Assembly (NCBI GenBank): GCA_028818695.1
Contig: JAPPNK010000002.1
Span: 1-64,000, forward strand
DNA: 64,000 bases
Reading direction: 5' to 3'
Source: Candidatus Poribacteria bacterium
GTDB lineage: Bacteria > Poribacteria > WGA-4E > GCA-2687025
Part shown: piece after piece, positions 1,462 to 43,493 of the stretch
How positions within the stretch are numbered: the stretch's first letter is position 1
How the letters are laid out: each line of letters begins with the position of its first letter
Position numbers and translations under genes: made by a program
The notes under the pieces: model-generated
Databases searched by the model: none
What the model was told of the DNA's origin: nothing
What the model saw: only the letters and a program-made list of their open reading frames with translations

Positions 1462-1503
1462 ACGATGTCCTTTGAGCCGCCTTCGTCCGCGCCCCGCTTG
1501 AGA

Positions 1504-1878
1504 TCAAGCCTTCTCTAGCGCCTCCTCAGCCCGCGTCATGACAACATCGATCATCCGCTCGTCAACGCCCAGCGGAGCTGTCAGCCGCGTTTCCACCTCC
1601 GGATACAACGCCGCCGCCGCCCGCGTCATGCGCGGTATGTCGCTCTGCGAATGCCGCCCTGGCGACAAAAAATACGGATGCACCACAACCCGCTCCGCCC
1701 CTTGCGACACGCACGCCTCAAACGCCTGCTCCAACGTCGGCTCCGCCAGCTCCATATGCGCCGCCTCAACAATGTCATAGACGCCGCGCGCCCGCGCCCG
1801 TTCGGCGACCGTCTCAAGCATCTCATTCGCCGCGCTCCGCTTGCTCCCATGATCGATCAGTATCAACGCCGTTCGCAT
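1504..1878 (-). CDS. CbiX/SirB-family sirohydrochlorin chelatase-like protein
   Basis: At 124 residues this has the size of the single-domain CbiXS class, which inserts cobalt or iron into sirohydrochlorin for cobalamin or siroheme. The metal-site histidine lies in LIDHGSKR (His10), and the second cluster in VVVHPYFLSPGRHSQSD supplies His67 and His76. The fold is the soluble half-chelatase type, which works as a dimer. No other tetrapyrrole gene lies nearby: the next gene upstream is an oxidoreductase on the same strand 24 bases away. Cobalt or iron specificity cannot be read from the sequence, so no symbol is given. Confidence 0.85.
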   Translation of the reverse strand: MRTALILIDHGSKRSAANEMLETVAERARARGVYDIVEAAHMELAEPTLEQAFEACVSQGAERVVVHPYFLSPGRHSQSDIPRMTRAAAALYPEVETRLTAPLGVDERMIDVVMTRAEEALEKA

Positions 1879-1902
1879 GTTTGCTCCGTTCCTTTCGTTT
1901 GG

Positions 1903-2922: not shown

Positions 2923-3055
2923 CGCCCCGCCTTCCGCCTAGCCCAATTCTGCGTCTTTTGCGCTTCATGATATGATACCGCATTTATACCCCCTTTCACA
3001 TGCGCAGTTCCCGCATGGCGGTCAGGTTGACGATGCCTTTTTCCCATCAGTAAAG

Positions 3056-3190
3056 GGTTTGTTCGTTCTATTTATGGGAAAAGGCGGCGCCAACCAGGCC
3101 GTCATTCCCGCGCAAGCGGGAATCCAGAGGCGCCGCAGAAACCGTCCACGTTCGCCCAGACGAGTGTCCCCACTAAAGCGCTAAGGTCAG
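3056..3190 (+). repeat. MITE-like element copy B, left end lost
   Basis: It reads TTCGTTCTATTTATGGGAAAAGGC, then the CGTCATTCCCGC...GCGGGAATCCAG hairpin, the GCCGCAGAAACCGTCC core and the end AAGCGCTAAGGTCAG. The outer left terminus is missing or scrambled. It lies in the 337-base gap between the oxidoreductase and the Rieske gene, directly upstream of a likely promoter; nothing else is seen in that gap. Confidence 0.75.
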
Positions 3191-25778: not shown

Positions 25779-28112
25779 TCATTTCGACAGAACCATGCGC
25801 CGCGTCTCTGAAAAGCTGCCCGCTTCGATTCTGACATAATAGACGCCGCTAGCTGCCGGCGCGCCAAGAGCGTCCCTGCCGTCCCAGTACGCCGCTTTGC
25901 CTTTAGCGCGGTAGGAGCCTGCCGCCAATTCGCCCAGCTCCATGCGCTTGACCGTTCGACCCGCCGAGTTGTAGATCGCGATCGTAACAGAGCTTTCTTG
26001 GGCTAAATCGAATGGGATCCATGTTTCAGGGTTGAACGGGTTCGGATAATTCGGCAGAAGCGCATTCTTCAATAAAAGAGGCGAATCCTCCCGCTTGATG
26101 TCCGACCACTGTATCGGCAGATCCTCAACGCCCCACAATAAAACGCGCCCGTCTTTTCCTCCGCTCACAAGCGACCTGCTGTCGGGAGAAAACGCAACTG
26201 AGTTCACATATCCGACATGCCCCCTCAACGTCTTTGTCAGCGCAAACGTCTCGGCGCTCCAAACCCGTACCGTTCCGTCGTCGCCGGCGCTGGCGATATG
26301 CCGGCCGTCAGGCGAATACGCCACAGTGCGAACAGCGCCCTCATGCCCGACCATCTTCCCTCTCAACGCGCCGTTCTCCGCGCTCCAGACGCGTACCGAG
26401 TCTTCCCCTCCAACCGCTATCGACCTTCCGTCCGGCGACAACGCCAACGCATGAACAGACCCGATCCCTTTCACCGTTCGAAGAACCTCTCTTTTCTCCA
26501 CATCCCAAAGATGGACGCTCCCCCCTCCCCCAGCGGCGGCTAAAACGCTTCCGTCTCGTGAAAACGACAGTTCAGAAGCCCATCCGCTAGGAGCCGTGAG
26601 CGCCTCCGCCGCCTCACCCGTTGAGATGTCCAAAAAGCGCACGATCCCTTTTTTATAGGTCGTGTTGTTGAAGGCAAGCGTCTTTCCGTCAGGAGTATAG
26701 GCAAACGAACTCGGAGAGTAGCCTTTCAATTCCGCGACCGGCTCCCCCGTCTCTGCGTCCCATACGCCGATCGCGTACTTCTCGCTGACGCCGGCGACGG
26801 TCCGCCCGTCCGGCGAAAACGCGGACGGTCCTGGATAGGCTCTGACGCTCCTTTTCTCCTCCCCGGTCGAAACATCCCAAATGTGAATGCCGCTGCTCGT
26901 AGAATACCCGTCAACGCTAGAAGTGGCGACACACCGCCCATCCGGCGAAAACGAAACGGATCGAATCGGGGAGCTTCCCGGTATCTTGTATTCAGCCTGC
27001 TTTTGCGCCTCAACGTCCCAATAATGAAACGGAGCGTCGGCGGTCAGGTAAGGAGAATAACCCGCCAACCGACCATTCGACGCGAATAAAAGTATCGATG
27101 TTTCTGGATTCTCAACAGCCGCCAACTGCTCGTTTTTCTCCAGATCCCAAACCTGAATCGTCATTGTACGATTCCATACATCTCTTTTAAAGGCTGCGAT
27201 GGTTCGGCTGTCCGGCGAAAAATCGGCAAAGCCGAAGCCGTCGGGCATCTCCATCAACGCTTCGCCCGTACTCAAATCCCATATGCAACTTTTCTCTCCG
27301 CTTCTTCCCGCGACAGCGCTTCCATCAGGCGCAAACTCCGCATACGTCAAACCTTCCCCAATGACGCGCAGGCGCTCTCTCGCCGCCGCATCCCAAACAT
27401 AAACCGACGCAACCCGTTCACTATGTATACCCGTATAGTTGACGCTTGCAATCAACCGGTTGTCAGGCAAAAACGCAATCCGATACCGAGATGGATAAAG
27501 CAAATGGTCCCGCGCATCGACAGGCGTATTAAACCGAGTTTTTAACTGCGCCGTTTCCACATCCCAAACATAAACGGCTTCCTTTCCCGCGCCGGCGAGG
27601 AGCCGCCCGTCATGTGAAAAAACCAGCGACCGAATCTGTTCGCTGCCCGGCTCAACCGCCGCCAGCGCCTCCCCCGTTTCCACATCCCAGACGTATATCC
27701 GTTCACCCCATTTGCTTGCGGCAACCGTTCGATTGTCCGGCGAGAAAGCGATGACTCCGTAATAGCTGATCTCGTTCGAAACAGGCGCCATCTTCCCTGT
27801 TTCCACATCCCAAATGCGGGCGATGTAAAAACTAGAGGAGACAAGGTATCGGTCGTCCGCCCAAAACTTCAACCAATCCACCTCATTTTGATACGCTCCG
27901 AGCGTTGAGACCAGCTCCCCCGTTTCAGCGCTCCATAGACTGACCAATCCGTTCGTGTCGCCTGTGGCAAGCAGCTTCCCGTCAGAAGACAACGCCGCTC
28001 TCCAAACGGTTCCTGGGGGCTGCCCAACAAGCTTCTGCGCCGCCCCCTTTTCAATCGACAGCCAAAATACCGCCAACGCCGCCAAAACCGACACCGCAGC
28101 CCGTCTCATCAT
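25779..28112 (-). CDS. Exported WD40 protein 1 with YPNPFNP C-terminal sorting domain
   Basis: 777 residues. The signal peptide (MMRRAAVSVLAALAVFWLSI, ending near GAAQ) is followed by about fourteen WD40-type blades, many with FSPDGR turns and a VWDVETG strand, enough for two propellers. The last 98 or so residues start with LLKNALLPNYPNPFNPETW and end SGVYYVRIEAGSFSETRRMV. This matches the FlgD-like or type IX (type A) sorting domains that direct proteins out of the cell. Blades near the C-terminus are very close to those of protein 4. It is the last of the four; the ribosome site is GAAAGGAG. Confidence 0.85.
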   Translation of the reverse strand: MMRRAAVSVLAALAVFWLSIEKGAAQKLVGQPPGTVWRAALSSDGKLLATGDTNGLVSLWSAETGELVSTLGAYQNEVDWLKFWADDRYLVSSSFYIARIWDVETGKMAPVSNEISYYGVIAFSPDNRTVAASKWGERIYVWDVETGEALAAVEPGSEQIRSLVFSHDGRLLAGAGKEAVYVWDVETAQLKTRFNTPVDARDHLLYPSRYRIAFLPDNRLIASVNYTGIHSERVASVYVWDAAARERLRVIGEGLTYAEFAPDGSAVAGRSGEKSCIWDLSTGEALMEMPDGFGFADFSPDSRTIAAFKRDVWNRTMTIQVWDLEKNEQLAAVENPETSILLFASNGRLAGYSPYLTADAPFHYWDVEAQKQAEYKIPGSSPIRSVSFSPDGRCVATSSVDGYSTSSGIHIWDVSTGEEKRSVRAYPGPSAFSPDGRTVAGVSEKYAIGVWDAETGEPVAELKGYSPSSFAYTPDGKTLAFNNTTYKKGIVRFLDISTGEAAEALTAPSGWASELSFSRDGSVLAAAGGGGSVHLWDVEKREVLRTVKGIGSVHALALSPDGRSIAVGGEDSVRVWSAENGALRGKMVGHEGAVRTVAYSPDGRHIASAGDDGTVRVWSAETFALTKTLRGHVGYVNSVAFSPDSRSLVSGGKDGRVLLWGVEDLPIQWSDIKREDSPLLLKNALLPNYPNPFNPETWIPFDLAQESSVTIAIYNSAGRTVKRMELGELAAGSYRAKGKAAYWDGRDALGAPAASGVYYVRIEAGSFSETRRMVLSK

Positions 28113-28124
28113 CCGATCTCCTTT

Positions 28125-30458
28125 CTATTTCAACAGAACCATGCGCCGCGTTTCCGAAAAGCTGCCCGCTTCGATTCTGACAAAATAGACGCCGCTAGCC
28201 GCCGGCGCGCCGAGAGCGTCCTTGCCGTCCCAGTACGCCGCTTTGCCTTTAGCGCGGTAGGAACCTGCCGGCAATTCGCCCAGCTCCATGCGCCTGACCG
28301 TTTGACCGGCCGAATTGTAGATCGCGATCGTCACGGAGCTTTCTTGGGCTAAATCGAACGGGATCCATGTTTCAGGGTTGAACGGATTCGGATAATTCGG
28401 CAGAAGCGCATTTTTCAAAATAAGAGGCGAATTTGGCCGCTTCGCGTCTGACCATAGAATAGGCAGATCGTCAAACCTCCAAAGCAGAACGCGCCCGTCC
28501 TTTCCTCCGCTCACAAGCGAACGGCTGTCGGGAGAAAACGCAACCGAGCTCACATAACCGGCATGCCCCCTCAACGTTCTTTTTAGTTGAAATGTCTCGG
28601 CGCTCCAGATGCGTATCGCCCCGTCTCCGCCTGCGACAGCGATAAGCGCCCCGTCAGGCGAATACGCAGCGGAGCCAACGGCTCCCTCATGCCCTTTCAG
28701 CTCCGCCCGCAGCGCCCCGCTTGACACATCCCAGAGACGCGCAACCGAGTCCTCTCCGCCGGTCAAGAGCGTTTTGCTGTCCGGCGAGAAGGCAAGCGCC
28801 TCCACATTTGTTCCATCCGCAAACGTTCGAATCAAATCGCCCGATTCGGAATTCCACAAAAACGCTGCGTCGTATCTCCCGACCGCCAGCATACTCCCGT
28901 CCGGCGAATACGCGAGCAAAGAAGCGCCCCGCTGATCGCCTTTCAGCTCCGCAGACACCCTGCCCAAATCGATTCGCCATATATAAACGCCTTTGCGTTG
29001 AGAATTGGGATTGATGAACGCTATCGATCTGCCGTCCGGCGAAAAAGTGAACAACGACGATCTGTATTCCGGCAATTCCGCTGTAAGTTCCCCCGTCTCG
29101 ACATTCCTGATCTGTATAGCCTCGTTGGATACAAGAGCGGCGACGGATTGACCATCCGGCGAAAAAGCCGCCTGTTCCCCATAAATCCAGTAATTCGCCT
29201 TCTCCTGACCCGTTAAAAGATCCCAAATCCGAAGCGAGCTGTCCCCAGACCAAACGCGCCGAGGCGAGCTGACGACAGAGCGGCCGTCAGGAGAAAGAGA
29301 AACCGACGCAATCGGCGTGTTGTTTGCAGGCGCCTCCCCCTTCATCTCTCCCGTCTCTATGTCCCAGACGCGCGTTTTGGTGGAGTGATAACCGTCAAAA
29401 GTTGTTGAAGAGGCGGCCGTCCGCCCGTCCGGCGACAGCGCTGTCTGGTATAAGCTCCCGTGAAACGTCGAGACGATCCGCCCCGTCTCCGCATCCCAGA
29501 TTTGTCCCTCATTCGAATCGAAGCCGACGATCAACTTGCTGCTGTCTTCTGAGAAGTAAGGCCGATCGTACGTATTCGACAGCCTTCGCTTTGCCCTTAG
29601 AATCCTCCCCGTTTCCAGTTCCCACAGGGTAACGATTTGGCTGCCGTTCACGCTCAACAGCTTTCGTCCGTCGGGAGAGAATGCGGCTTGACTAAAATCG
29701 CCGCCAAAGGACGATCTCATCATCCCTGTTTCCAAATCCCATACCTCTGCCGTTCCGGTTCCGTCGCCATACTTATTTTTGAAGCGAGCGCGCGCAATCG
29801 AGAGGTTGTCGGGAAGAAACGCAATGCGGTACCCAGACGGAAAAGTCAAACTGCCTAACATCCGTCCAGGTATGCTGATCTGATGCTTCACCCGCAGCGT
29901 TTCAGCGTTCCATATATAAATGCCGTCTTCCCAAGAGCCGGCAATCAGCAGCCCATCATGCGAATAAACCAGCGAATCAAGATGAACGTCGACATTCTCC
30001 AACTCCCCCTTCCTCTCCCCCGACAGAAAGTCCCAGACGCTCACAACGCTGTATTCGTCGCTGACGGCGAGCGTCCTCCGGTCTGGCGACAGGGCGACAT
30101 AGTAACAAATGCCCAATTGATCGGAAATCGGGAGACGCTCGCCTGTCTTCAAGTCATGCGCCTGCAGCCTGTAAAAGCTGGAGTTGAGAAGATAGCGGCT
30201 CCCGGGCCAAAAGCGCATCCAGTCCACCTCCGAAATATTGCCGTCCAGCGTCCGTATGGGCGTTCCTGTTGAGTAGTCCCAGAGCTGTATCGTCCCGCCG
30301 TTCCCGCCGCTCGCAAGCGTCTTTCCATCCGGCGACAACGCCAACGAAGCGACAGCTCCTGGATGCCGCCCAATAACCTTCTGCGCAAAGCCGTCCTCAA
30401 CCGACAGCCAAAATGCCGCCAACGCCGCCAAAACCAACACCGCAGCCCGTCTCATCAT
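28125..30458 (-). CDS. Exported WD40 protein 2 with YPNPFNP C-terminal sorting domain
   Basis: 777 residues with the same plan: signal peptide (MMRRAAVLVLAALAAFWLSV), two likely propellers (AYSPDG, VWDLETG, LWDVSSGALRAELKGHEGAV), and the 98-residue C-terminal domain. Blade sequences between about 60 and 550 are the most different of the set, while the signal peptide and the C-terminal domain are almost those of protein 1. It is separated from protein 1 by 12 bases. The start has AAAAAGGAG. The role is presumably cell-surface binding; no catalytic motif is visible. Confidence 0.85.
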   Translation of the reverse strand: MMRRAAVLVLAALAAFWLSVEDGFAQKVIGRHPGAVASLALSPDGKTLASGGNGGTIQLWDYSTGTPIRTLDGNISEVDWMRFWPGSRYLLNSSFYRLQAHDLKTGERLPISDQLGICYYVALSPDRRTLAVSDEYSVVSVWDFLSGERKGELENVDVHLDSLVYSHDGLLIAGSWEDGIYIWNAETLRVKHQISIPGRMLGSLTFPSGYRIAFLPDNLSIARARFKNKYGDGTGTAEVWDLETGMMRSSFGGDFSQAAFSPDGRKLLSVNGSQIVTLWELETGRILRAKRRLSNTYDRPYFSEDSSKLIVGFDSNEGQIWDAETGRIVSTFHGSLYQTALSPDGRTAASSTTFDGYHSTKTRVWDIETGEMKGEAPANNTPIASVSLSPDGRSVVSSPRRVWSGDSSLRIWDLLTGQEKANYWIYGEQAAFSPDGQSVAALVSNEAIQIRNVETGELTAELPEYRSSLFTFSPDGRSIAFINPNSQRKGVYIWRIDLGRVSAELKGDQRGASLLAYSPDGSMLAVGRYDAAFLWNSESGDLIRTFADGTNVEALAFSPDSKTLLTGGEDSVARLWDVSSGALRAELKGHEGAVGSAAYSPDGALIAVAGGDGAIRIWSAETFQLKRTLRGHAGYVSSVAFSPDSRSLVSGGKDGRVLLWRFDDLPILWSDAKRPNSPLILKNALLPNYPNPFNPETWIPFDLAQESSVTIAIYNSAGQTVRRMELGELPAGSYRAKGKAAYWDGKDALGAPAASGVYFVRIEAGSFSETRRMVLLK

Positions 30459-30475
30459 GCGATCTCCTTTTTATT

Positions 30476-30515
30476 TCAACAAAACCGTCCTGCGCGTTGA
30501 CGCTCAACGCTTGCC
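30476..30515 (-). pseudogene. Stub of a fifth WD40 gene (last codons only)
   Basis: Upstream of protein 2 the minus strand reads the codons for STRRTVLLK and a stop, then an AAAAAGGAGATCGC ribosome site and ATGATG. That is the same junction seen between proteins 1 and 2. No WD40 coding sequence precedes the stub, so most of a former copy appears deleted. The rest of the 199-base gap holds the 31 bp tandem repeat and nothing else. Confidence 0.6.
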
Positions 30516-30577
30516 CAGCAAAATCAGCGCCAAGCCAGAAGCCCGTTAACGACCGCCTTGCCGCAAAAACCAGCTCA

Positions 30578-30650
30578 GAAAACGTACGTTATGGTACGCT
30601 TCCCTGACGAAAACGTACGTTATGGTACGCCTCCTTGACGAAAACGTACG
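30578..30650. repeat. 31 bp tandem repeat, 2.4 copies
   Basis: GAAAACGTACGTTATGGTAC recurs at 30578 and 30609, with a third partial copy (GAAAACGTACG) at 30640. Each full unit contains the interrupted palindrome CGTAC-6-GTACG. It lies upstream of WD40 protein 2 and could be an operator or a replication-slippage repeat. Confidence 0.85.
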
Positions 30651-30657
30651 CCCTGCG

Positions 30658-32994
30658 TCATTTCAAAAGAACCATCCGCCGCGTCTCCGTATAACCGCCC
30701 GCCTCAATCCGCGCAAAATAAACGCCGCTGGCGGCGGGCGCGCCAAGATCGTTTCGTCCGTCCCAGTACGCCGCTTTGCCTTTAGCGCGGTAGGAACCTG
30801 CCGCCAATTCGCCCATCTCCATGCGCCTGACCGTTCGACCCGCCGAGTTGTAGATCGCGATCGTCACGGAGCTTTCTTGGGCTAGATCGAACGGTATCCA
30901 TGTTTCAGGATTGAACGGGTTCGGGTAATTCGGCAGAAGCGCGTTCTTCAAAAAAAGAGGCGAATTCGGACGCTTGATGTCCGACCACTGTATCGGCAGA
31001 TCCTCAACGCTCCACAATAAAACGCGCCCATCCTTCCCTCCGCTGATGAACGACCGCCCGTCAGGAGAAAAAACAACCGAGCTCACATATCCGACATGTC
31101 CCGTCAGCGCATTTTTCAGCTCATATGTGTCAGCGCTCCATAGGCGTAGGTAGCTGTCGTCGCCGGCGCTGGCGATGTAGCGTCCGTCCGGCGAGTAGGC
31201 GACGGCGCGAATCTCGCCTTCATGCCCGCGCAGCTTCGCCTGCAGCGCGCCGTTCTCGACGCTCCATACTCGAAGAATCGAATCCTTGCAGCCGGCCGCG
31301 GCGAAATTGCCGTCCGCCGACAACGCCAGCGAGTCGATCGGCGAGCTAGAGGTCAAAGTACGGATCCGCTCGCGCGTTTCGACGTCCCAGAAATGAATAT
31401 CGGAGCCGTCGCCTTCAGCGGCGAGCGTCAACCCGTCGCCCGAAATTGCCAGCTCGGATAAATAATCGCTGGGTGAATGGAACGCCTCGACCGTCTCGCC
31501 TGTCGTCACGTTCACATAGCGTACGATACCGTCTCCGTGAAAAGATTGAGTGAAAGCAAGGTTCGTTCCGTCCGGTGTGAAAAGGAACGATCGCGGCGTG
31601 CGGCCGTTCAGTTCCATGACGGTCTCGCCCGTTTCCGCGTCCCATACGGCGATTCCTTTGTGGAGGCCGACGCCCGCGATATAGCGTCCGTTCGGCGAGT
31701 ACACGATCGGGCCGGGTTCAGCTTTGAAGTTGATCTTTTCTTCCCCTGTTGAGACATCCCAGACGCGAACGGCATCGTCCGTTAACCATCCATTGTTGTG
31801 CGAGCTGGCAGCGGAGCGCCCGTCCGGCGAAAACGAAACCGAGCGAATGCCGGTACTGGCATGAACAAAGAAGGTACGCTTCTCTTGAGTCTCCATATCC
31901 CAACTATCGATGGCAGTGTCTTCGCGCCTTACCGCCTTTTCCGCCAGCAGCCGCCCATTTGACGACAACAGAAGACGGTACCAGTACGCGCCGTCGTAGG
32001 TTGCAACCCGTTGCTTTGTTTTCACATTCCAGACGTGAAGCGGAGTCGTTCTGTTCTGAATGTCCCATCCAAGGGCTGCGATCATCCGCCCGTCTGTAGA
32101 GAAGACTGGGTATTGTAAACCTTCAGGCAATTCCATCCAGAGCGCCCCTGTTTCCAGATCCCATAGGCGAATTGTTCCGGCGTATTCCTCCTTGACAAAT
32201 CTGCTGTCCGGCGAGAAAGAGGCGTTGATTAGGTTTTCGCTAAAGGCGAGCCGGCGCTCTCCCGTTTCTACATCCCACACATGTACGGTTGAGGTTTTTT
32301 TCCCGGAGACGCCGCGGCGGCTCAGGCTCGCGATGGATCGGTCGTCGGGCAGGAACGCAATGCGGTAATTGGACGGGCGGGGAATTGCGGAGTGATCATC
32401 GGTCGGCGTTTTTATATAGGTTTTCAACTCGCCCGTTTGCAAATCCCAGATATAAACGCCTTCCGCGCCGGCGCCGGCAACGAGAAGCCCGTTATGAGAA
32501 AACACAAGCGCCGTCAGCTGCTCGCTGACAGCCTCCAGCTCCCCCTTCATCTTCGCTGTCTCCACATCCCATATCTGTACAGCGCTTTCCCATTTCCAGG
32601 CGGCGATCGTCCTGTTGTCCGGCGAAAAAGCGGAGACAAAGGAGCCTGCCAACTGATGCGAAACAGCCTTCATTTTTCCCGTCTTAACGTCCCATATCCG
32701 CGGATCGCGAAAATTGGACGCGACAAGATAGCGGTTTCTTGCCCAAAACCGCGTCCAGTACACCTCCCACCTAAACGCCCCCAGCGAATGGATCATGCGC
32801 CCTGTTTGAGCGTCCCAAAGCCGCACAAGCCCATTTGTGTCGCCTGTCGCAAGCAGTTTCCCGTCAGACGACAACGCTGTTCGCTCAATAGTTCCAGGAT
32901 GCCGCCCAACAACTCTCTGCGCCTCCCCTTCGTCAACCAAGAGAAGCCAACATGCCAAACATGCCAACGCCAAACACGCCCCGCGCTTCATCAT
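30658..32994 (-). CDS. Exported WD40 protein 3 with YPNPFNP C-terminal sorting domain
   Basis: 778 residues from the ATG at 32994, preceded by AAAGGA; a further ATG at 33009 overlaps the stop of protein 4 but only adds five residues before the signal peptide (MMKRGACLALACLACWLLLV). Two sets of WD40 blades follow (WDVETAKMKGELEAVSEQL, LWDLETGALWMELPEG, VWSVENGALQAKLRGHEGEI). The C-terminal domain is diverged near its end (YFARIEAGGYTETRRM). Proteins 3 and 4 are likely co-translated. Confidence 0.85.
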   Translation of the reverse strand: MMKRGACLALACLACWLLLVDEGEAQRVVGRHPGTIERTALSSDGKLLATGDTNGLVRLWDAQTGRMIHSLGAFRWEVYWTRFWARNRYLVASNFRDPRIWDVKTGKMKAVSHQLAGSFVSAFSPDNRTIAAWKWESAVQIWDVETAKMKGELEAVSEQLTALVFSHNGLLVAGAGAEGVYIWDLQTGELKTYIKTPTDDHSAIPRPSNYRIAFLPDDRSIASLSRRGVSGKKTSTVHVWDVETGERRLAFSENLINASFSPDSRFVKEEYAGTIRLWDLETGALWMELPEGLQYPVFSTDGRMIAALGWDIQNRTTPLHVWNVKTKQRVATYDGAYWYRLLLSSNGRLLAEKAVRREDTAIDSWDMETQEKRTFFVHASTGIRSVSFSPDGRSAASSHNNGWLTDDAVRVWDVSTGEEKINFKAEPGPIVYSPNGRYIAGVGLHKGIAVWDAETGETVMELNGRTPRSFLFTPDGTNLAFTQSFHGDGIVRYVNVTTGETVEAFHSPSDYLSELAISGDGLTLAAEGDGSDIHFWDVETRERIRTLTSSSPIDSLALSADGNFAAAGCKDSILRVWSVENGALQAKLRGHEGEIRAVAYSPDGRYIASAGDDSYLRLWSADTYELKNALTGHVGYVSSVVFSPDGRSFISGGKDGRVLLWSVEDLPIQWSDIKRPNSPLFLKNALLPNYPNPFNPETWIPFDLAQESSVTIAIYNSAGRTVRRMEMGELAAGSYRAKGKAAYWDGRNDLGAPAASGVYFARIEAGGYTETRRMVLLK

Positions 32995-33005
32995 CCCGTA
33001 TCCTT

Positions 33006-35345
33006 TCATTTCAAAAGAACCATCCGCCGCGTCTCTGAAAAGCTGCCCGCTTCGATTCTGACAAAATAGACGCCGCTAGCCGCCGGCGCGCCGAGAGCGT
33101 CCCTGCCGTCCCAGTACGCCGCTTTGCCTTTAGCGCGGTAGGAACCCGCCGCCAATTCGTCCAGCTCCATGCGCCTGACCGTTTGACCCGTCGAGTTGTA
33201 GATCGCGATCGTCACGGCGCTTCGTTGCGCTAAATCGAACGGGATCCAAGTTTCAGGGTTGAACGGATTTGGGTAATTCGGCAGAAGCGCGTTCTTCAAA
33301 ATAAGAGGCGAATTTGGCCGCTTCGCGTCAGACCATAGAATAGGCAGATTGTCAAACCTCCAAAACAGAACGCGCCCGTCCTTTCCTCCGCTCACAAGCG
33401 AACGGCTGTCGGGGGAAAACGCAACCGCGTTCACCCATCCAACATGCCCCCTCAATGTCTTCTTCAGCTGAAACGTCTTTGCGCTCCAAATCCGTACCGT
33501 TCCGTCCTCCCCCGCGCTGGCGATATGCTGTCCGTCAGGCGAATACGCCAAAGCATGAACAGCGCCCTCATGGCCAATCATCTTCCCTCTCAACGCGCCG
33601 TTCTTCGCGCTCCAGACGCGCACAATCGAATCCTCTCCTCCAACCGCTATGGATCCTCCGCTCGGCGACAACGCCAGCGCATAAACAGACCCGACCCCTT
33701 CCACCGTTTGAAGAATCTCCCTCGTCTCCACATCCCAAAGATGGACGCTCCCCCTGCTCCCAGCGGCAGCTAAAACGCTTCCGTCTCGAGAAAACGACAG
33801 ATCATAAACCCATCCGCTAGGAGCCGTGAGCGCTGCCGCCGCCTTCCCCGTTGAGATGTCCAAGAAATGCACGATGCCCCCTTGATTGACCGCATTGTTG
33901 TTGAAGGCAATCGTCTTTCCGTCAGGAGAATAGGCAAGCGAACTCGGAGAGTAACTTTTCAATTCCACGACCTGTTCCCCCGTCTCCGCGTCCCATACAA
34001 GGATCGTGTCATCATAGTTGACGCCGGCGATGGTCCGCCCGTCCGGCGAAAACACGGAAGGTTCAGAATAGGCTCTGATATGCCGCTTCTCCTCTCCGGT
34101 TGAAACATCCCAAATGCGAATGGCGTAGTCCGTGAGCCATATATAGCTGCACGAGCTGGCGACAGAGCGCCCGTCCGGCGAAAACGACAACGACATAATC
34201 TCCGAACTTCCCGGAACTAAGAATTGGGCGGTCTTCCGCCCCTGAATATCGAAACGAGTGAACTCTGCCTCCCGAAACGTTATGCCCACCGTCGCCGTCA
34301 ACAGACTATTCGACGACAAGTAAGTATGGTACTTGTTGCCGCTCTCTATGACCGACGCCAGAGCTCTTGCCTCCATGTCCCAAATTTGAATCGTCCTCGT
34401 ATCGCTTTCCCTGTTGTGTCTTGAAACGGCCATGAATCGGCTGTCAGGCGAGAAAACCGGTCGGTCAAAACCCTCCTCAAACGCTGTCAACTCCTCCCCC
34501 GTTCTCAGGTCCCAAAGACCGAACTTCCCCCCGCTGCGCGCCGCCAGCGCGCTTCCGTCCGGCGCAAACCTGGCTCCCGTGAGATTCCCCCCAAACTCAA
34601 GCTGATTTTGCCCAGTTTCCGCATCCCAAACATGGACAGCCGCAATATTCTGTTGGTCGTACTTTGTATGGCTAAGGCTGGCGATAGAGCGGTTGTCAGG
34701 AAGGAACGCAATGCGGTAATCATGCGGATACAATATCCCCCTATCCAGCGAGTCGACCGGCGTTGCGAAGCGCGTTTTCAACTCCCCTGTCGCCGCGTCC
34801 CAAATATAAACCCCCTCATCCCCGGCTCCGGCGATAAGCCGCCCGTCATGCGAAAAAACAAGCGATTCCATCTCCTCGCTGACAGCCTCCAGCTCCCGCT
34901 TCAGCTCTCCCGTTTCCACATCCCAAAGCTGTATTGGGCTGTTCCATTTCTTGGCGGCAACCGTCTGCCCGTTGGGAGAAAAAGCGAACGTACTGATCTT
35001 GTTCAATTCGCGCGAAACTGCCTTCAGCTCCCCCGACGCCGCATCCCAAATGCGGATATCTGAAAAACTACGCCCAACAAGATACCGGCTGCCCATCTTG
35101 AACCCCAGCCAGTCCACTTCCTGACGAAACTCCGCCATCGAATGAATTATCTGTCCGGTTCGAGCGTCTAAAAGCCGCACAATCCCATTCGTATCTCCCG
35201 TTGCAAGCAGCTCCCCGTCAGAAGACAACGCCGCCCGCATGACAGACCCAGGATGCCGCCCAACAACTTTCTGCGCCTCCCCCTCGTCAACCAAGAACGA
35301 AAAACATGCCAAACACGCCAAAATACAGAACGCCGACCGCCTCAT
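33006..35345 (-). CDS. Exported WD40 protein 4 with YPNPFNP C-terminal sorting domain
   Basis: A 779-residue protein, first gene of the array. The signal peptide (MRRSAFCILACLACFSFLV) precedes two propellers. Blades in the last third (GWVYDLSFSRDGSVLAAAG, SVHLWDVETREILQTVEGVG, IVRVWSAKNGALRGKMIGHE) are close to protein 1, so these two share the most recent ancestry or have exchanged DNA. The C-terminal domain reads DLAQRSAVTIAIYNSTGQ where others read DLAQESSVTIAIYNSAG. The 149 bases upstream show no other gene. Confidence 0.85.
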   Translation of the reverse strand: MRRSAFCILACLACFSFLVDEGEAQKVVGRHPGSVMRAALSSDGELLATGDTNGIVRLLDARTGQIIHSMAEFRQEVDWLGFKMGSRYLVGRSFSDIRIWDAASGELKAVSRELNKISTFAFSPNGQTVAAKKWNSPIQLWDVETGELKRELEAVSEEMESLVFSHDGRLIAGAGDEGVYIWDAATGELKTRFATPVDSLDRGILYPHDYRIAFLPDNRSIASLSHTKYDQQNIAAVHVWDAETGQNQLEFGGNLTGARFAPDGSALAARSGGKFGLWDLRTGEELTAFEEGFDRPVFSPDSRFMAVSRHNRESDTRTIQIWDMEARALASVIESGNKYHTYLSSNSLLTATVGITFREAEFTRFDIQGRKTAQFLVPGSSEIMSLSFSPDGRSVASSCSYIWLTDYAIRIWDVSTGEEKRHIRAYSEPSVFSPDGRTIAGVNYDDTILVWDAETGEQVVELKSYSPSSLAYSPDGKTIAFNNNAVNQGGIVHFLDISTGKAAAALTAPSGWVYDLSFSRDGSVLAAAGSRGSVHLWDVETREILQTVEGVGSVYALALSPSGGSIAVGGEDSIVRVWSAKNGALRGKMIGHEGAVHALAYSPDGQHIASAGEDGTVRIWSAKTFQLKKTLRGHVGWVNAVAFSPDSRSLVSGGKDGRVLFWRFDNLPILWSDAKRPNSPLILKNALLPNYPNPFNPETWIPFDLAQRSAVTIAIYNSTGQTVRRMELDELAAGSYRAKGKAAYWDGRDALGAPAASGVYFVRIEAGSFSETRRMVLLK

Positions 35346-35752: not shown

Positions 35753-35826
35753 TTTCGGTTATCCTTTCCATGTTCATTCAACTTCAGAGCAGTCGGCGCC
35801 AATGTCAAAACGAACCCGCCCCGCCC

Positions 35827-37329
35827 ATGATTAACCAAAAACAAAAACGGCTCGGAGCGGTCTATACGCCGCGACGCATCGTCGACATGATACTGGACGG
35901 GGCGGGGCTTGCCAACGCTGAAACGCTCGCAAACGCGCGCATCTGCGACCCTGCATGCGGCGACGGAGCCTTTTTGACCGCCGCGGCGGAACGCGCTCTC
36001 AACCTCCTCCCCAAAAAGGACGCCCTCCGTACGCTGCGCCGACTCACAGGCTGCGACATCAACCCCGCCGCTGTCAACGAATGCCGAGTCCAACTGGACG
36101 CCCTGCTCAAAAAACGGCATCCCAAAGAGAATGTCAACTGGCGACTGCGCGTCTGCAACGCCTTCAACCGGTCGGAGCTGCAAAACGAATGGGGGCGTTT
36201 CACGCATGTCGTCGGAAACCCGCCTTACATCCGCATTCAGCGGCTCGAAGAAGAGGGGCGGGGTCTCATCGACGGACAATGGAAAACGATGCGCGGGGCG
36301 TACGACTCCTATCTGCTCTTCTTTGAGCTCGGGCTGGAACTGCTGCGCGAGGGCGGAACGCTCGCCTATATCGCGCCGTCCAGCTGGCTCCGCTCGCGGG
36401 CGGGGCGCAACCTGCGCGCCATGCTCGCCCAGTCGCACGCCGTGACGCGCCTCATCGACTTTCAGGACGAGCAGGCGTTTGAGGGCGTCTCCACCTACAC
36501 CGCCGTCGCCTTTATCCAAAAAGGGGGCGAAACGCGCCGCATCCCCGTCCATCTCGGCGGCGGAACGCTCGCCTATATCGACATCGACAAGGCAGACCTG
36601 TTCCGCCCATGGACGGCGCTGACGCCCAAAGACAAAGCGCGCATGGAAACCCTAAAGCAGCGCGGACCGCAGCTCGGAAGCGTCGCGGACATCCATGTCG
36701 GCATACAGACGCTCGCCGACAGCGTCTTCATCCTGCCGATAGAACCGAACGCAACGGCGCCGACAGGACGCGCCGCATGCCGAACGCAGAACGAAACCTT
36801 GACGCTCGAACGCTGGATTCTGCGCCCGATTGTGAAAGCGTCCGTCATGAAAAACGGCGAAGACCCCGTCCAGCGCGCCCTCATCTATCCATACGACCCT
36901 GAAGGCCGCCTGCTCCCTGAAACGCGCATCGCCGAAAAAGCGCCCGCCGCATACGCCTGGCTCAAACGGAACAAGGAGCGGCTGCTCAACCGAGACAAAG
37001 GCAAAACAGACCCAGAACGCTGGCATGCCTTCGGACGCAGCGTCTCGATCCTGACCGCGTTCGGCGGCAAAATACTCACCTCCGCCATGAACCGCCGACC
37101 GAATTTCCAAATCTGCGCCAACCCGAACGCCGCCTTCTACTCAGGCTACTGCGTCAAACCGAAAGCGGCTGTCGATACCCGCCGCCTGATCAATGTCCTC
37201 AACTCCGACGACATGGAGTTCTACATACGGCGAATCGGGCAGCCGTACCAGAACGGCTGGATGTCCTACGCCAAATCGTATATCCAAACCTTCCCCGTCC
37301 CATGGAGCCTCATACGCCATGAACGATAA
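35827..37329 (+). CDS. Gamma-class N6-adenine DNA methyltransferase (TaqI-like)
   Basis: 500 residues from the ATG at 35827 (a further ATG at 35770 gives 519). Motif X appears as GAVYTPRRIVDMIL, motif I as DPACGDGAF (41-49), the acidic residue after it in GCDINP, and motif IV as NPPY (131-134). The order X-I-IV with a long C-terminal part (about 230-500) is the gamma class, where the C-terminal half recognises DNA. It would methylate adenine in a specific site using S-adenosylmethionine. It could be a lone methyltransferase or part of a restriction system with the nuclease-like gene at 39315. Confidence 0.85.
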   Translation: MINQKQKRLGAVYTPRRIVDMILDGAGLANAETLANARICDPACGDGAFLTAAAERALNLLPKKDALRTLRRLTGCDINPAAVNECRVQLDALLKKRHPKENVNWRLRVCNAFNRSELQNEWGRFTHVVGNPPYIRIQRLEEEGRGLIDGQWKTMRGAYDSYLLFFELGLELLREGGTLAYIAPSSWLRSRAGRNLRAMLAQSHAVTRLIDFQDEQAFEGVSTYTAVAFIQKGGETRRIPVHLGGGTLAYIDIDKADLFRPWTALTPKDKARMETLKQRGPQLGSVADIHVGIQTLADSVFILPIEPNATAPTGRAACRTQNETLTLERWILRPIVKASVMKNGEDPVQRALIYPYDPEGRLLPETRIAEKAPAAYAWLKRNKERLLNRDKGKTDPERWHAFGRSVSILTAFGGKILTSAMNRRPNFQICANPNAAFYSGYCVKPKAAVDTRRLINVLNSDDMEFYIRRIGQPYQNGWMSYAKSYIQTFPVPWSLIRHER

Positions 37330-38200
37330 ACGCCCCCGGCGATTTCCCCTTTACGGCGTTCTCGGACTAGCGCTCATTGTCGCCGCCCAAGCATGCGCCG
37401 CCTTCGACCATTACAACCCCGACGCCTCCGCCTTCGCCCGCCGCGTTAGCCGCCATGCGACCGCCGTCTGCTGGTGGGGGTATCTCCTGTTCGTCGACGC
37501 ATGGATACGGCGCATGAAGGGCGAATCGCTCCTGACGACGCGGCGCGCCGAGTTTGCCGTCATGCTGCCGCTCTCCGTCCTGTTCTGGGTCCTGTTTGAG
37601 TTTTACAACTTCCATCTCATCAACTGGCGGTACGAGGGGCTTTCGCCTCTTCAATGGGAGCGGATCATCGGGTCGACGGCGGCGTTTGCGACCGTCCTGC
37701 CCGGCGTCCTGCTGACAAGCGAATGGCTGGACGCAAAGGGCGTCTTCCGCAACCTGAAAATCGAACCGCTGCGGGTGGACGGACGGCTCACATTCGGGCT
37801 GATCCTGTTCGGGACCGCATGCGCCGTCGTGCCGCTCATGCTGCCGCAAGCGTGGGCGAAGTACGCCTTCGCGCCGGTCTGGATCGCGTATGCGTTCATG
37901 CTGGACCCCATCAACCGCGCGAACGGGGCGCCCTCCCTGCTCGCCGATTTTGAGCGCGGACATCTGGGAAAGGCGGCGTCCCTCTTTGCGGCAGGGCTGC
38001 TCTGCGGCTTCTGGTGGGAGTCTTGGAACTGGTTTGCGGCGGCGAAATGGAAATACCAAGTGCCGTTCACGCCCGGCGTCTCCATCTTTGAGATGCCGAT
38101 GGCAGGCTTTTTAGGCTTCGCGCCGTTTGCATGGGAGCTGTATGCGATGTACCACTTTGCGCGGACGATCGGCCGCTCATCCCAGCGCGGGATTAACTGA
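37319..38200 (+). CDS. Polytopic membrane protein, tryptophan-rich, unknown function
   Basis: 293 residues from the ATG at 37319, which overlaps the methyltransferase stop by 11 bases. Eight or so hydrophobic helices, with conserved-looking aromatic turns (TAVCWWGYLLFVDAWIRR, FEFYNFHLINWRYEG, CGFWWESWNWFAAAKWKY, EMPMAGFLGFAPFAWELY). Proteins with these turns are common in uncultured bacteria, but I know of no assigned function. Close coupling to the methyltransferase may be chance. Confidence 0.75.
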   Translation: MNDKRPRRFPLYGVLGLALIVAAQACAAFDHYNPDASAFARRVSRHATAVCWWGYLLFVDAWIRRMKGESLLTTRRAEFAVMLPLSVLFWVLFEFYNFHLINWRYEGLSPLQWERIIGSTAAFATVLPGVLLTSEWLDAKGVFRNLKIEPLRVDGRLTFGLILFGTACAVVPLMLPQAWAKYAFAPVWIAYAFMLDPINRANGAPSLLADFERGHLGKAASLFAAGLLCGFWWESWNWFAAAKWKYQVPFTPGVSIFEMPMAGFLGFAPFAWELYAMYHFARTIGRSSQRGIN

Positions 38201-38435
38201 TTTTTTCATCGTCTTCGTTTTTGAGCCTTTGAAGCTCGAATTCTTGATCTCCCCTTATGAGCTTATATTTCATGAACATTATAGCAAGACCAAACAATAA
38301 AAGTATGGCAATACCAAGTAATAAAATCAGTGATCCCCATCGGGACATTTCTTGATTTTTTTCTTGTCCAAAGGCGGTCACTGTTGTCGCGAGGAATATC
38401 AGCGCAGAGATCGTAAATGTGTAGAACATGTGCAT
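38193..38435 (-). CDS. Small two-helix membrane protein
   Basis: 80 residues: an N-terminal hydrophobic segment resembling a signal peptide (FYTFTISALIFLATTVTAFG), then a longer membrane helix (WGSLILLLGIAILLLFGLAI) and a charged tail (ELQRLKNEDDEKIS). It overlaps the preceding membrane protein convergently by 8 bases. The region from here to about 39.3 kb is visibly more AT-rich than its neighbours, which suggests transfer. Function unknown. Confidence 0.55.
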   Translation of the reverse strand: MHMFYTFTISALIFLATTVTAFGQEKNQEMSRWGSLILLLGIAILLLFGLAIMFMKYKLIRGDQEFELQRLKNEDDEKIS

Positions 38436-38472: not shown

Positions 38473-39147
38473 TCAATTTTTTTGTTTGATTCGGTGTGTT
38501 TTTATGAAGTCGTGTTTCGAGGGGTCAAACGCTTTCACGTGTTGCCAGCCGTAATGTGGCGGCGGAAAGTTTCGGGGTGAGCTGTCGGCGTCATATGGGT
38601 GTTTGAGCAACCATCTCCATGATTTGCTCCATAGCGCAGGCATGTACGCAAAATCGTTGTCATTACACATGATGCGGGTTGCGTAAATCAATGCTCTGTG
38701 AGTGCCGTCGTCGATGTAAAGTTTGGCCTTCCGAAGCGTAGGGTCTCTGTTGATCTCGTCTTGCTCGTCTCGAAGGCTGCTGACCAGCAAAGGTCCCATG
38801 TAGACGAGGTCGAACTTGTCATTAATCTTTGGAAATTTTGTGAAGAAATTAGAGGGTCTGGTCCTTCTTTCTGGCTGGGCTTTTGCGGCTTCACTCAGTC
38901 GCTGGAAGATCTTCGTAGAATCGTCTCCGTATTCGCGGATCAGTCGTTCAGCCACTTTACGAAGTGTGCGGGGTTTGCCTTCTGGCGCAAGCATTTGATA
39001 AAGTTCACCTGCCACCGGATCACAGGGTTCGTCAGCGCTTTCATTCCAGTAACCAGGCATTCCCAACCAGATAAGATTGTCCAGGTAGGCATTTTTATCG
39101 CTGATGATGATCAAATGTGCTTTCTCGATGTTGTTGCGATCTGTCAT
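38473..39147 (-). CDS. Hypothetical protein with a ParB/sulfiredoxin-like DGTHRA motif
   Basis: 224 residues from the ATG at 39147, with a GGAG ribosome site. The N-terminus includes HLIIISDKNAYLDNLIWL; the middle is helical (TLRKVAERLIREYGDDSTKI). Near 160-175, KLYIDDGTHRALIYATRIM resembles the DG-H/N-HR loop of ParB-type nuclease/CTPase and sulfiredoxin domains. The rest shows no family hallmark, so this is a weak clue. AT-rich like its neighbour; part of a probable accessory block. Confidence 0.6.
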   Translation of the reverse strand: MTDRNNIEKAHLIIISDKNAYLDNLIWLGMPGYWNESADEPCDPVAGELYQMLAPEGKPRTLRKVAERLIREYGDDSTKIFQRLSEAAKAQPERRTRPSNFFTKFPKINDKFDLVYMGPLLVSSLRDEQDEINRDPTLRKAKLYIDDGTHRALIYATRIMCNDNDFAYMPALWSKSWRWLLKHPYDADSSPRNFPPPHYGWQHVKAFDPSKHDFIKTHRIKQKN

Positions 39148-39314
39148 GATTGACTCCAATGTTTTTTGTACGGCTCAATGGCCCTTTCGTTCGAGGCTGA
39201 ACCAACACGCCCATGACGCTCTTGAGACGTCCGAACTCTTCCGTCAAGATGTTTTTCGAATTAAATCGTGGTCGGCTTTGACTCGCTCGTAGATACGGTC
39301 AGCTTGCCGACTAG

Positions 39315-40163
39315 ATGCAGCCGCAACAGCGTTCAGATATACTTAAAAGCATGAACAATGCGAATATCAACAGCCCTGAAATCGTCACGACGCCGACCTT
39401 CGAGTGGCTCGCCGCAAAGACGATCCACTGCCGCAACGAGCTGCTCATTGGAAGCCCGTATGTGACGGACGCTCTATTGGAACTCTCGCGGCTTGCGCCT
39501 AAGGGAGTGTCCAAACGGCTCGTCACCCGAACGAAAATGGGCGATTTTAAAATGGGCATGTCCAGCCTAGACGCGATTTGCGCATTTGCCGAGGAGGGCG
39601 CTCGCGTCTATTCGCTCAACAATCTCCATGCCAAAATCTATGTGTTTGACGAATCGACCGCGCTTGTCACGTCCGCAAACGCGACGCAAGCGGGTCTGCG
39701 CAGCAACTTAGAATGCGGGCTTGCGACCAGCGACGCATACATCGCGCGCCAGCTTTCCCTAGAGCTCATGAGCGGATTTAACAACGCGGATCCGCCCCGT
39801 AGAATGAAACTGAATGAGCTTCAAGATATGCGGAATCCGCTAGGCGCAGTGAGCGTTGAGATGCCGGAAACGGAAGATGAAAGCGAAGCGGAACCGGTCA
39901 TATCGGCGCCCGACAGCGAGGCGTTTTTGAATTCGTTTACAGGGTGGAATCAGATCGCGCTGCGCGGCGCTTTGTCGTTCAGCGGACGCGAATTTGAAAC
40001 GTCTGAATTGTATCAGGCGTGCAGGGCGGACGCGAAACGCAAATATCCGACGAACAAGAATCCGAACGCAAAGCTCAGGCAACAGCTGCAGTTCCTGCGC
40101 GACATGGGGCTGATTGAGTTTGTAGAAGGCAAAAAAGGCTGGTACCGCTTACTTGTGAAGTGA
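39315..40163 (+). CDS. Phospholipase-D-fold nuclease-like protein with DpnI-like winged helix
   Basis: 282 residues (alternative ATG at 39351). One HKD-type motif is seen: LHAKIYVFDESTALVTSAN, with His105, Lys107, Asp112, Ser120 and Asn122, followed by Glu133 in RSNLECGL. A single HKD half-site means a dimer would be needed, as in BfiI-type restriction enzymes. Residues 225-282 (ELYQACRADAKRKYP, KLRQQLQFLRDMGLIEFVE, KGWYRLL) match the C-terminal winged helix of DpnI and Dam-replacing proteins, which read DNA. This combination suggests a DNA-cutting enzyme next to a methyltransferase. Confidence 0.72.
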   Translation: MQPQQRSDILKSMNNANINSPEIVTTPTFEWLAAKTIHCRNELLIGSPYVTDALLELSRLAPKGVSKRLVTRTKMGDFKMGMSSLDAICAFAEEGARVYSLNNLHAKIYVFDESTALVTSANATQAGLRSNLECGLATSDAYIARQLSLELMSGFNNADPPRRMKLNELQDMRNPLGAVSVEMPETEDESEAEPVISAPDSEAFLNSFTGWNQIALRGALSFSGREFETSELYQACRADAKRKYPTNKNPNAKLRQQLQFLRDMGLIEFVEGKKGWYRLLVK

Positions 40164-40743: not shown

Positions 40744-42150
40744 TCAACCCGAAAAAAGCGACAGCCCCCCAATCAGGCTCATCCGCCGTTCCGTCGTGAA
40801 GTGGGAGGGTCTCGTGAACCCTTCCCCCGTCCGCCCCGCCACCGACATCGCCAAGAACCCAGGACCCCCGATGCCCCCGCACACAAACGACGGCGCGTTC
40901 GCCACCAAGATGCCGACCTGCATCGCCCGCGCGTATTCGCCGACCCTGTCCATCCGCGCCGTGTGGATCATGGCGGTATGTCCGCGCCCGCCTTCTATCT
41001 GAACGCAGACCTGAACCGCCTCCTCAAACGAACGGACGCGCACAATCGGCACAATCGGCGTCAAAAACTCCTCCATCGCCAGGACATGATCAGCCGACGT
41101 CTCCGCAAGCACAGCCAGGTCGTCCGACGACCCTCGAACGCCCGCCGCCTCCAGCAGAACGGACGCATTCTGCCCAATCATCTCAGGGCAATGTTTTCCT
41201 TCTTCCGTCAAGACGGCGCTCATCAGCCTTGTCAGCTCGTTGGGGCGCAGCAGCCGTCCGCCTTGCCGCGTCATCTGGCGCAGCAGCTCGTCCGCCGCCG
41301 ATTCCACGACGACGCATGCTTTTTCGCCGATGCAGAGCAGGTTGTTGTCGAACGAGGCGCCTTCGATGACGGCGCGCGCCGCGTTTTCCAGGTTTGCCGT
41401 TTCGTCCACGAGCGCGGTCGGGTTGCCGGGTCCTGCCGCCCATGTTTTTTTGCCCGACTCCAAGACGGCGCGCACGACGCCCCCTCCGCCCGTCGCGCAG
41501 ACAGCGTCCACATCCGCATGCTTCATGAGCGCGGACGCATGGCGCAGGGACGGCTCGGCGACCGCCGTCAACAGGTTCGGCGGCCCTCCCGCAGAAACGA
41601 TCGCCTCGTTCAGATACGCCATCGTTTTAAGGCAGCAGTTCGCCGCTCTCGGATGCGGACTGAAGACGACGGCGTTTCCGCCCGCGAGCATGATGATCGC
41701 GTTGTTGATGATGGTGGAGGTCGGGTTGGTCGTCGGGGTGATTGCGTTGATGAGACCGATGGGGGCGCGCTCCACAATCAGGACGCCGTGTTCGTCCGTT
41801 TCCGCCTGCGCTTGTATCTCTTCGACGCCTGGGCTGAGGTCGGCGGCGCCTTCGTTCTTTGTCCGTTTATGTTCGGCGCGCCCCATTTTCGTTTCGGCGA
41901 CAGCCATGTCGGCGAGCTCTTGGGCGCGTTCGCGTCCAACCTGACGCATCGCCTCGACGACGCGCTTGCGCAGCTCCATGCCGCTTTGGGCGTATGTTTT
42001 CTGCGCCTGGCGCGCCGCCTCCACCGCCTCGTCGGGCGTCTCAAAAATGCCCGTTCCCGCCGGGCGCGCGGCAGCCGGCGCCGCGGGCTTCTCCTGCGTC
42101 AGCTCGCGCACCACCCTTTCGGCTATCTCCCGTATCTTCGCTTCATCCAT
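40744..42150 (-). CDS. CoA-acylating aldehyde dehydrogenase of a bacterial microcompartment (EutE/PduP type)
   Basis: 468 residues. The N-terminus is an amphipathic helix (MDEAKIREIAERVVRELTQE) and a Pro/Ala linker, the form of a microcompartment targeting peptide. The catalytic domain has NAITPTTNPTSTIINNAI, AVCATGGGGVV, the GPGNPTALVD loop and the active Cys273 in SFDNNLLCIGEKACVV. It would oxidise an aldehyde to an acyl-CoA with NAD+ and CoA inside the shell. The ribosome site is AGGGAGG. It lies downstream of the shell protein and aldolase in one run. Confidence 0.9.
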   Translation of the reverse strand: MDEAKIREIAERVVRELTQEKPAAPAAARPAGTGIFETPDEAVEAARQAQKTYAQSGMELRKRVVEAMRQVGRERAQELADMAVAETKMGRAEHKRTKNEGAADLSPGVEEIQAQAETDEHGVLIVERAPIGLINAITPTTNPTSTIINNAIIMLAGGNAVVFSPHPRAANCCLKTMAYLNEAIVSAGGPPNLLTAVAEPSLRHASALMKHADVDAVCATGGGGVVRAVLESGKKTWAAGPGNPTALVDETANLENAARAVIEGASFDNNLLCIGEKACVVVESAADELLRQMTRQGGRLLRPNELTRLMSAVLTEEGKHCPEMIGQNASVLLEAAGVRGSSDDLAVLAETSADHVLAMEEFLTPIVPIVRVRSFEEAVQVCVQIEGGRGHTAMIHTARMDRVGEYARAMQVGILVANAPSFVCGGIGGPGFLAMSVAGRTGEGFTRPSHFTTERRMSLIGGLSLFSG

Positions 42151-42277
42151 CGCCGCCTGCGCCTCCCTCTTTAAAACGACGCCCGCCCGACCCTATCGAT
42201 AGAAAACGCCCTGCGGCTGCGGACTTGAACAGCTCTCTAGTCCGCCTTCATTTGCGGCGCTCTATGGGCGAAACAGC

Positions 42278-42580
42278 CTACTCTTCCGACGAAGCCGCTC
42301 CGCCGCGCGCGATTGGAAGTACCGCCTCCGTTTCGGCATGCGGACGCGGGATCACATGCACCGAGACGAGCTCGCCGACGGAGCGCGCCGATTCCGCCCC
42401 CGCTTCGGTCGCCGCTTTCACGGCGCCGACATCGCCGCGCACCAGCACGGTCACAAGCCCGCCGCCCACCTTCTCCATTCCGACGATGTTCACATTCGCC
42501 GCTTTCACCATGGCGTCCGCCGCTTCGACGGCTCCCACCAGTCCGCGCGTTTCAACCAGTCCCAACGCTTCGCCTGCCAT
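42278..42580 (-). CDS. BMC-H shell protein (hexameric microcompartment shell subunit)
   Basis: 100 residues, a single BMC domain: [60 protein letters not shown], and [16 protein letters not shown], with a short acidic tail. This is the PduA/EutM/CcmK type whose hexamers tile the shell; VGGG lies at the pore position. A strong AAAAGGAG ribosome site precedes the start. Only one shell gene is in the window: no pentamer (BMC-P) or trimer (BMC-T) gene is seen here, so more shell genes must lie elsewhere. 127 bases separate it from the dehydrogenase with no other feature. Confidence 0.95.
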
Positions 42581-42629
42581 ATTCGCCGCTCCTTTTTCTG
42601 TTTATTTGGAAACCTGTTCATAGCCGCGC

Positions 42630-43430
42630 CTATGAGGACGACGCAGCCCGCTCCTCCAACACCTCCGCCGCCACTCTCGCAATCAAAGCGGTCAACCGCT
42701 CCTCGCTTATCTCTTCCGTTTCCCCTGTGGACGCCGCCTGATTCGCCTCTTGAATGCGCGGGTTCACATCGCACAGCGGAACGCGCGACCCCAGCCCCAG
42801 CCGCTCGCGCAGCTCCAGCAGCTCCTGCGCGTCCTGGTTCGTCAGCTCCTTGACGCCGCCCAGCGTTTTTGCAACCCATGTGATATGCGCCGTATGCTCC
42901 AGCGTCTCCATCTTGTAGTAGGCGTCCATTGGGCTGCCGCCGACCGTCACCGCGCCATGATTCGCCAGCAAAATCGCGTCGCAACTTTCAATGAGATGGT
43001 CGATCGACTGGGGAAGTTTCTCGCCCCCCGGCGTCGCATACGGCGCCAGCGGAATGCATCCAAACGAGACGATCGTCTCCGGCAGCGTCAGCTCATCCAG
43101 CGCAAGCCCCGCCAACGCAAACCCGGTCGCTTTAGGCGGATGCGCATGCGCGACCGCGTGGACGTCCGGCCGCCGCTGATAGCAATGCAAATGAAGCCGT
43201 ATCTCCGACGACGGGCGCAGATACCCCTCCAGCTGCTCTCCCTGCGCGTTCAGCTTACAGATCATGTCCGGGCTGATGGAGCCTTTGCTAACGCCGGTCG
43301 GCGTCGCCAGAATATCCCCGTTTTTCAGCCGCGCCGTGATGTTCCCGTCGTTGGAGGCGACCATATTCCGGGCGTATAAACGCCGCCCCGCCTCGCAAAT
43401 TTCCTCCCGCAACCGCTTCTCGTCAGACAT
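42630..43430 (-). CDS. Class II aldolase with microcompartment targeting tail (fuculose-phosphate aldolase-like)
   Basis: 266 residues from the ATG at 43430. The core has the AraD/FucA signatures: MVASNDGNITARL, TPTGVSKG, PSSEIRLHL (with the acidic catalytic Glu), VAHAHPPKATGFA giving two zinc-ligand His residues, and ILLANHGAVTVG with the third. A zinc enzyme that splits fuculose- or rhamnulose-1-phosphate to dihydroxyacetone phosphate and lactaldehyde would fit. After the catalytic domain a linker leads to an amphipathic helix (SEERLTALIARVAAEVLEER), the form of a targeting peptide. The shell gene follows after 49 bases. Confidence 0.88.
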   Translation of the reverse strand: MSDEKRLREEICEAGRRLYARNMVASNDGNITARLKNGDILATPTGVSKGSISPDMICKLNAQGEQLEGYLRPSSEIRLHLHCYQRRPDVHAVAHAHPPKATGFALAGLALDELTLPETIVSFGCIPLAPYATPGGEKLPQSIDHLIESCDAILLANHGAVTVGGSPMDAYYKMETLEHTAHITWVAKTLGGVKELTNQDAQELLELRERLGLGSRVPLCDVNPRIQEANQAASTGETEEISEERLTALIARVAAEVLEERAASSS

Positions 43431-43493
43431 CAATACCGCCCCCTGAACCGCGTTTAGACCGCGCCATTAATGTAGCGCTTTCCCCCCTGCGAT

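Follow-up and report, generated by a model that had tools for sequence, protein, structure and literature searches.

A PLD-like nuclease joined to a DpnI-like winged helix

The window analysed here, a stretch of 64,000 nucleotides, carries in its ORF listing a 282-aa ORF at 39315-40163 on the plus strand, in which an N-terminal PLD-like nuclease domain is joined to a C-terminal DpnI-like winged helix (wH). The assignment of this PLD-wH gene draws on the ORF itself, the Pfam domains PLDc_2 and DpnI_C, a structural model and three orthologues. Translation may instead start at Met13 (39351), since the alignment with the orthologues opens around residue 22. The PLD-like nuclease domain, delimited from PLDc_2 and structural matches to Nuc, NucT and BfiI, spans residues 22-153 (39378-39773, +), and the winged helix spans residues 208-280 (39936-40154, +). 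The linker between them, residues 154-207 (39774-39935, +), is the least conserved part of the protein in alignment A1, as judged from identity by region, and has the lowest interior pLDDT.

Profile searches of each half placed PLDc_2 at residues 39-148 (E-value 9e-14; 51.9 bits, cut-off 27) and DpnI_C at residues 224-278 (E-value 2.7e-11; 43.9 bits, cut-off 23). Both are above the Pfam gathering score, and therefore neither half is a chance match. A phmmer search of PDB sequences also matched residues 208-278 to DpnI (4esj/4kyw, E-value 3.7e-4). In the window's own genome (G000) the PLD-wH protein is the only DpnI_C protein.

PADLOC matched the first half of the protein to DrmC models (best E-value 3.3e-16) and the second half to mREase_II, a methyl-directed restriction enzyme model (1.4e-7), and the best NCBIfam match of the PLD half was again DrmC (2.9e-13). 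Such matches would suit a DrmC-like (DISARM) PLD nuclease or nicking accessory protein in which the wH serves for general DNA binding only. However, the NCBIfam match, at 49.9 bits, falls below the cut-off of 133 and is confined to the HKD region, DrmC models lack a DpnI_C domain, and no DISARM family was found by Pfam among the adjacent ORFs scanned. Membership of a DISARM system was rejected on the DrmC score and the scanned neighbours, and we consider a DrmC-like role highly improbable.

AlphaFold2 modelling of the window protein with a 22-row alignment gave a mean pLDDT of 92.9 and a pTM of 0.86. In Foldseek searches against the PDB, the top-ranking matches of this model were NucT (E-value 1.1e-7) and Nuc (1byr, E-value 1.6e-7; TM 0.73 by target length), with further matches to DpnI (4kyw, 8.6e-6) and BfiI (2c1l, 1.3e-5). 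Modelled in isolation, the wH reached a pLDDT of 94.9, and its three PDB matches with E < 0.001 were all DpnI chains, the best with an rmsd of 1.6 A over 72 columns and 36% identity. The original prediction had proposed a PLD fold followed by a C-terminal segment like that of DpnI; both the PLD fold and the winged helix are present in the model, and the likeness to DpnI is borne out by the Pfam domain, the phmmer match and the isolated model alike.

The HKD motif, H105-x-K107-x4-D112 (HAKIYVFD), is encoded at 39627-39650, followed by Asn122 (39678-39680) and Glu133 (39711-39713), all on the plus strand. These are the five residues that had been named beforehand as a single HKD-type half-site; all of them are there, and all are invariant between the window protein and the three orthologues in alignment A1. 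The active-site residues of BfiI are H105, K107, N125 and E136 (PMC4081073), to which H105, K107, N122 and E133 of the window protein correspond. With one HKD motif per chain, a complete active site would have to be assembled from a pair of chains, the arrangement seen in Nuc and BfiI.

Methyl-reader residues and possible targets

The helix motif K253-L-R255-Q256-Q257-L-Q259 (40071-40091, +) aligns with K229-I-R231-Q232-Q233-L-Q235 of DpnI in the phmmer alignment and in alignment A3, with all polar residues of the motif identical. The DpnI reader residues K229, R231, Q232 and Q235 are K253, R255, Q256 and Q259 in the window protein, a comparison made at the mutated residues K, R, Q and Q rather than over the full m6A/GATC column set of Figure 1D in PMC11037411. 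Numbering in the DpnI PDB chain appears to be the native numbering plus 3, judging from a chain length of 257 versus 254. Within the DpnI wH, K229 and R231 are required for DNA binding (PMC4117772); the equivalents K197, R199 and Q200 are required in HHPV4I, and DpnI Q235 has been named too (PMC10101028). The motif is common to DpnI-like proteins and most PLD-wH proteins in alignment A3, with exceptions in L004 (KLSEQLQ) and L055 (KVRQILQ).

A protein that keeps the PLD-wH architecture and its dependence on modification might have a different target, whether m6A within another sequence or a base modified in another way. Among wH fusions, the complete 6mA/GATC motif occurs in only about 10%, and the others may recognise different marks (PMC11037411); in HHPV4I, a single wH substitution, K197A, loosens the sequence requirement (PMC10101028). 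In the window protein, the segments flanking the reader helix are unlike those of DpnI, with NKNPNA adjoining the helix versus NxHVxA in the DpnI consensus, and a wing two residues longer than that consensus. In the close orthologue L004 (7977-8807), S and E replace the reader R and Q (KLSEQLQ versus KLRQQLQ), so the reader may be drifting, and this orthologue could have changed or lost its ability to read methylation. Against a different target, the window protein retains every one of the four residues with an established role (K, R, Q and Q), and we regard this alternative as unlikely. The narrower proposal of a PLD-wH subfamily whose reader has moved off G(m6A)TC, in a genome with dozens of methyltransferases, we hold to be rather improbable; if true, such a protein would be a metal-independent nuclease that reads adenine methylation in a context yet to be described, or a different mark.

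Genomic context and distribution

The original prediction had drawn attention to a gamma adenine methyltransferase 2 kb away, and such a gene is present. A predicted gamma-type adenine methyltransferase with motif NPPY (35770-37329, +; Pfam Eco57I 8.9e-25 and N6_Mtase 7.9e-14) ends 1,986 bp upstream of the PLD-wH gene on the same strand. Among solved structures, entries 8cxz and 7lni (BseCI and TaqI) are closest to it in sequence. The proximity and shared strand of a genuine Eco57I/N6_Mtase protein would be in keeping with a conventional type II enzyme that cuts unmethylated sites and has this methyltransferase as its cognate. However, the two genes are separated by three ORFs (37193-38200, +; 38193-38435, -; 38473-39159, -), two of them on the other strand, and none has a Pfam match above cut-off (the first being scanned from 37319). 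Homologues of the methyltransferase with 35-38% identity were found in four of five other genomes of the same family, while no DpnI_C protein was found in any of these five. Moreover, the PLD-wH orthologues in L002 and L004 sit amid housekeeping genes, and no recognisable DNA methyltransferase was seen, mostly by eye, beside PLD-wH in L002, L004, L059, L060 and L061; Pfam gave no match for the 740-aa neighbour in L060. The wH itself belongs to the methyl-reading DpnI type. Because its homologues occur in relatives without the fusion, the methyltransferase is probably not a partner of PLD-wH; its relevance, unlike its presence, found no support, and the type II explanation is very unlikely. The lack of a recognised methyltransferase beside PLD-wH elsewhere fits the published figure for wH fusions, 87% of which have no methyltransferase within three genes (PMC11037411).

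Two further loci of note in the window lie on the minus strand. A bacterial microcompartment locus at 40744-43433 encodes an aldehyde dehydrogenase (PF00171), a BMC shell protein (42278-42580; PF00936, E-value 5.4e-30) and a class II aldolase (42630-43433; PF00596). At 25779-35345 there are four ORFs in succession, each of about 780 aa; WD40-like repeats are present in the one at 33006-35345, whose C terminus bears a YPNPFNPETWIP tail reminiscent of a secretion sorting signal.

The 3.6-Mb genome G000 is exceptionally methyltransferase-rich, with 41 matches to PF01555 (N6_N4_Mtase), two full-length PF02086 (D12) proteins and five Eco57I-type proteins above cut-off. One of the PF02086 proteins belongs to the Dam family (TIGR00571, 212.6 bits versus 114.85). 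It is encoded on contig C21 (L023, 1366-3110), at 1366-2280 (-), and adjoins an EcoRV-like endonuclease at 2277-3110 (-; phmmer to EcoRV, E-value 1.9e-38). M.EcoRV methylates the first A of GATATC. If the Dam-family enzyme shares this target, only one strand of the ApT would carry the methyl group, in contrast to the fully methylated G(m6A)TC site. Some methyltransferases of G000 might methylate GATC and so bring PLD-wH into self-conflict; the scan for GATC-methylating enzymes was at the family level, and family does not give the target sequence. GATC is not avoided in the window (320 sites seen versus 332 expected), which is uninformative for a methyl-dependent enzyme. With its abundance of R-M genes and its pair of a Dam-family methyltransferase and an EcoRV-like endonuclease, G000 offers a natural case in which to ask how an enzyme of this kind would spare its own genome.

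Six more PLD-wH carriers were found in Chloroflexota MAGs, three of which are orthologues. These full-length orthologues (L002, L003 and L004), from Chloroflexota/Dehalococcoidia MAGs, share 43-46% identity with the window protein over the whole of alignment A1 (44-48% in the best tblastn segments) and form one clade with it (support 100/99). Between L002 and L003, dN/dS is about 0.21 overall, 0.16 for the PLD domain and 0.27 for the wH, low values that indicate purifying selection on both domains. Among 400 sampled Chloroflexota genomes, DpnI_C was found in 13, in four of which it is joined to a PLD domain (G098, carrying L002; G157, L052; G155, L054; and G370, L055). In L054 and L055 the PLD domain belongs to a separate clade, a hint, though no proof, of more than one PLD-wH fusion event.

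In the class of the window genome, four of 83 genomes had a DpnI_C match, and in the other three it lay only in ORFs of no more than 132 aa; these ORFs (L056, L057 and L058; 100-132 aa) have no nuclease domain in the same ORF. The patchy distribution and the orthologues in another phylum suggest horizontal transfer of the PLD-wH gene. No relatives were found in IMG/VR scans with the window protein and alignment A1, and a phage collection scan gave one weak match, to the wH only. Plasmid scans returned only Agrobacterium/Rhizobium-type PLD proteins with 27% identity, and the one read out (L020) has a different C-terminus. The IMG/VR, phage and plasmid scans thus gave no evidence of PLD-wH being a mobile-element gene. 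An archaeal (Thermoplasmatota) MAG encodes a DpnI-like protein (L010, 5486-6292) and, at 145-2733 of the same locus, a PLD protein with HAKIYVFD.

Predicted activity and comparison with known systems

The domain composition, the predicted folds and the conserved catalytic and reader residues are features of the window protein itself. Taken together, we consider it likely that the protein is a stand-alone type IV endonuclease of the PLD-wH class, with a wH that reads m6A and a dimeric PLD domain that cuts nearby. By analogy with its relatives, it would be expected to form dimers, to work without metal, to depend on m6A, to cut at a distance and to serve in defence. The C-terminal wH would recognise ApT methylated on both strands, most probably as part of G(m6A)TC or of the looser S(m6A)TS, reading it, like DpnI, without flipping the base, and would hold the N-terminal PLD half-site on the DNA. 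The HKD motifs of two paired chains would then make up a single active site that, like those of Nuc and BfiI, needs no metal, and the DNA would be cut near the methylated site via a covalent histidine intermediate. Such an enzyme would probably serve to restrict DNA entering from Dam-positive hosts or from phages that methylate adenine. A nuclease directed by m6A and independent of metal would have practical use.

The pairing of a PLD domain with a DpnI-type wH had been called unusual in the original prediction, a view that is now outdated: the design, though rare, is a published class of wH-fusion endonucleases, and the window gene is a further example of it. In a search for nucleases fused to the DpnI-type wH, Helbrecht et al. 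(2024) named PLD-wH as one class, with 27 members (PMC11037411). As candidate type IV enzymes that depend on m6A, two of these, Aba4572I from Anaerolineaceae and CbaI from Chloroflexi, were tested in cells; toxicity of CbaI was Dam-dependent, and Aba4572I was toxic in Dam-minus cells upon induction (PMC11037411), so that the m6A dependence of the PLD-wH class is not secure. Neither was purified, and PLD-wH is the one wH-fusion type of which no representative could be purified in that study (PMC11037411). The window gene and its orthologues are additional, sequence-divergent PLD-wH candidates, with catalytic and reader residues intact in the window protein.

Like Aba4572I and CbaI (PMC11037411), the window protein has an N-terminal PLD domain and a C-terminal DpnI-type wH in one chain, and it shows three features of the class, namely a PLD domain with HxK(x4)D, the wH on the same chain and the m6A/GATC reader residues. 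The published enzymes come from Chloroflexota, as do the nearest orthologues of the window protein, and their cognate methyltransferase is usually not adjacent; the window genome differs in lineage, lying outside the sampled Chloroflexota, and the comparison is one of architecture, not of sequence. R.DpnI (4esj, 4kyw) shares with the window protein the wH fold and the reader residues K229/R231/Q232/Q235, but its catalytic domain is of the PD-(D/E)XK type and itself reads G(m6A)TC. The N-terminal half of the window protein is a PLD domain and lacks the PD-(D/E)XK catalytic domain of the DpnI / Dam-replacing family. The type IIS enzymes BfiI and BmrI (2c1l) have, like the window protein, a PLD fold and one HKD half-site per chain with H-x-K, N and E; BfiI, however, relies on a B3-like domain for DNA binding and targets an asymmetric site that is unmethylated, whereas the C-terminus of the window protein is a DpnI-type wH. 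Nuc (1byr) and NucT (6ehi), the best structural matches of its nuclease half, are small secreted or non-specific nucleases that, unlike the window protein, have no DNA reader domain. HHPV4I/HhiV4I, Ahi29725I and SruGXI likewise combine the wH reader with an unrelated nuclease and are m6A-dependent (PMC10101028, PMC11037411), but their catalytic domains are metal-dependent HNH or GIY-YIG domains, in the place of which the window protein has a PLD domain.
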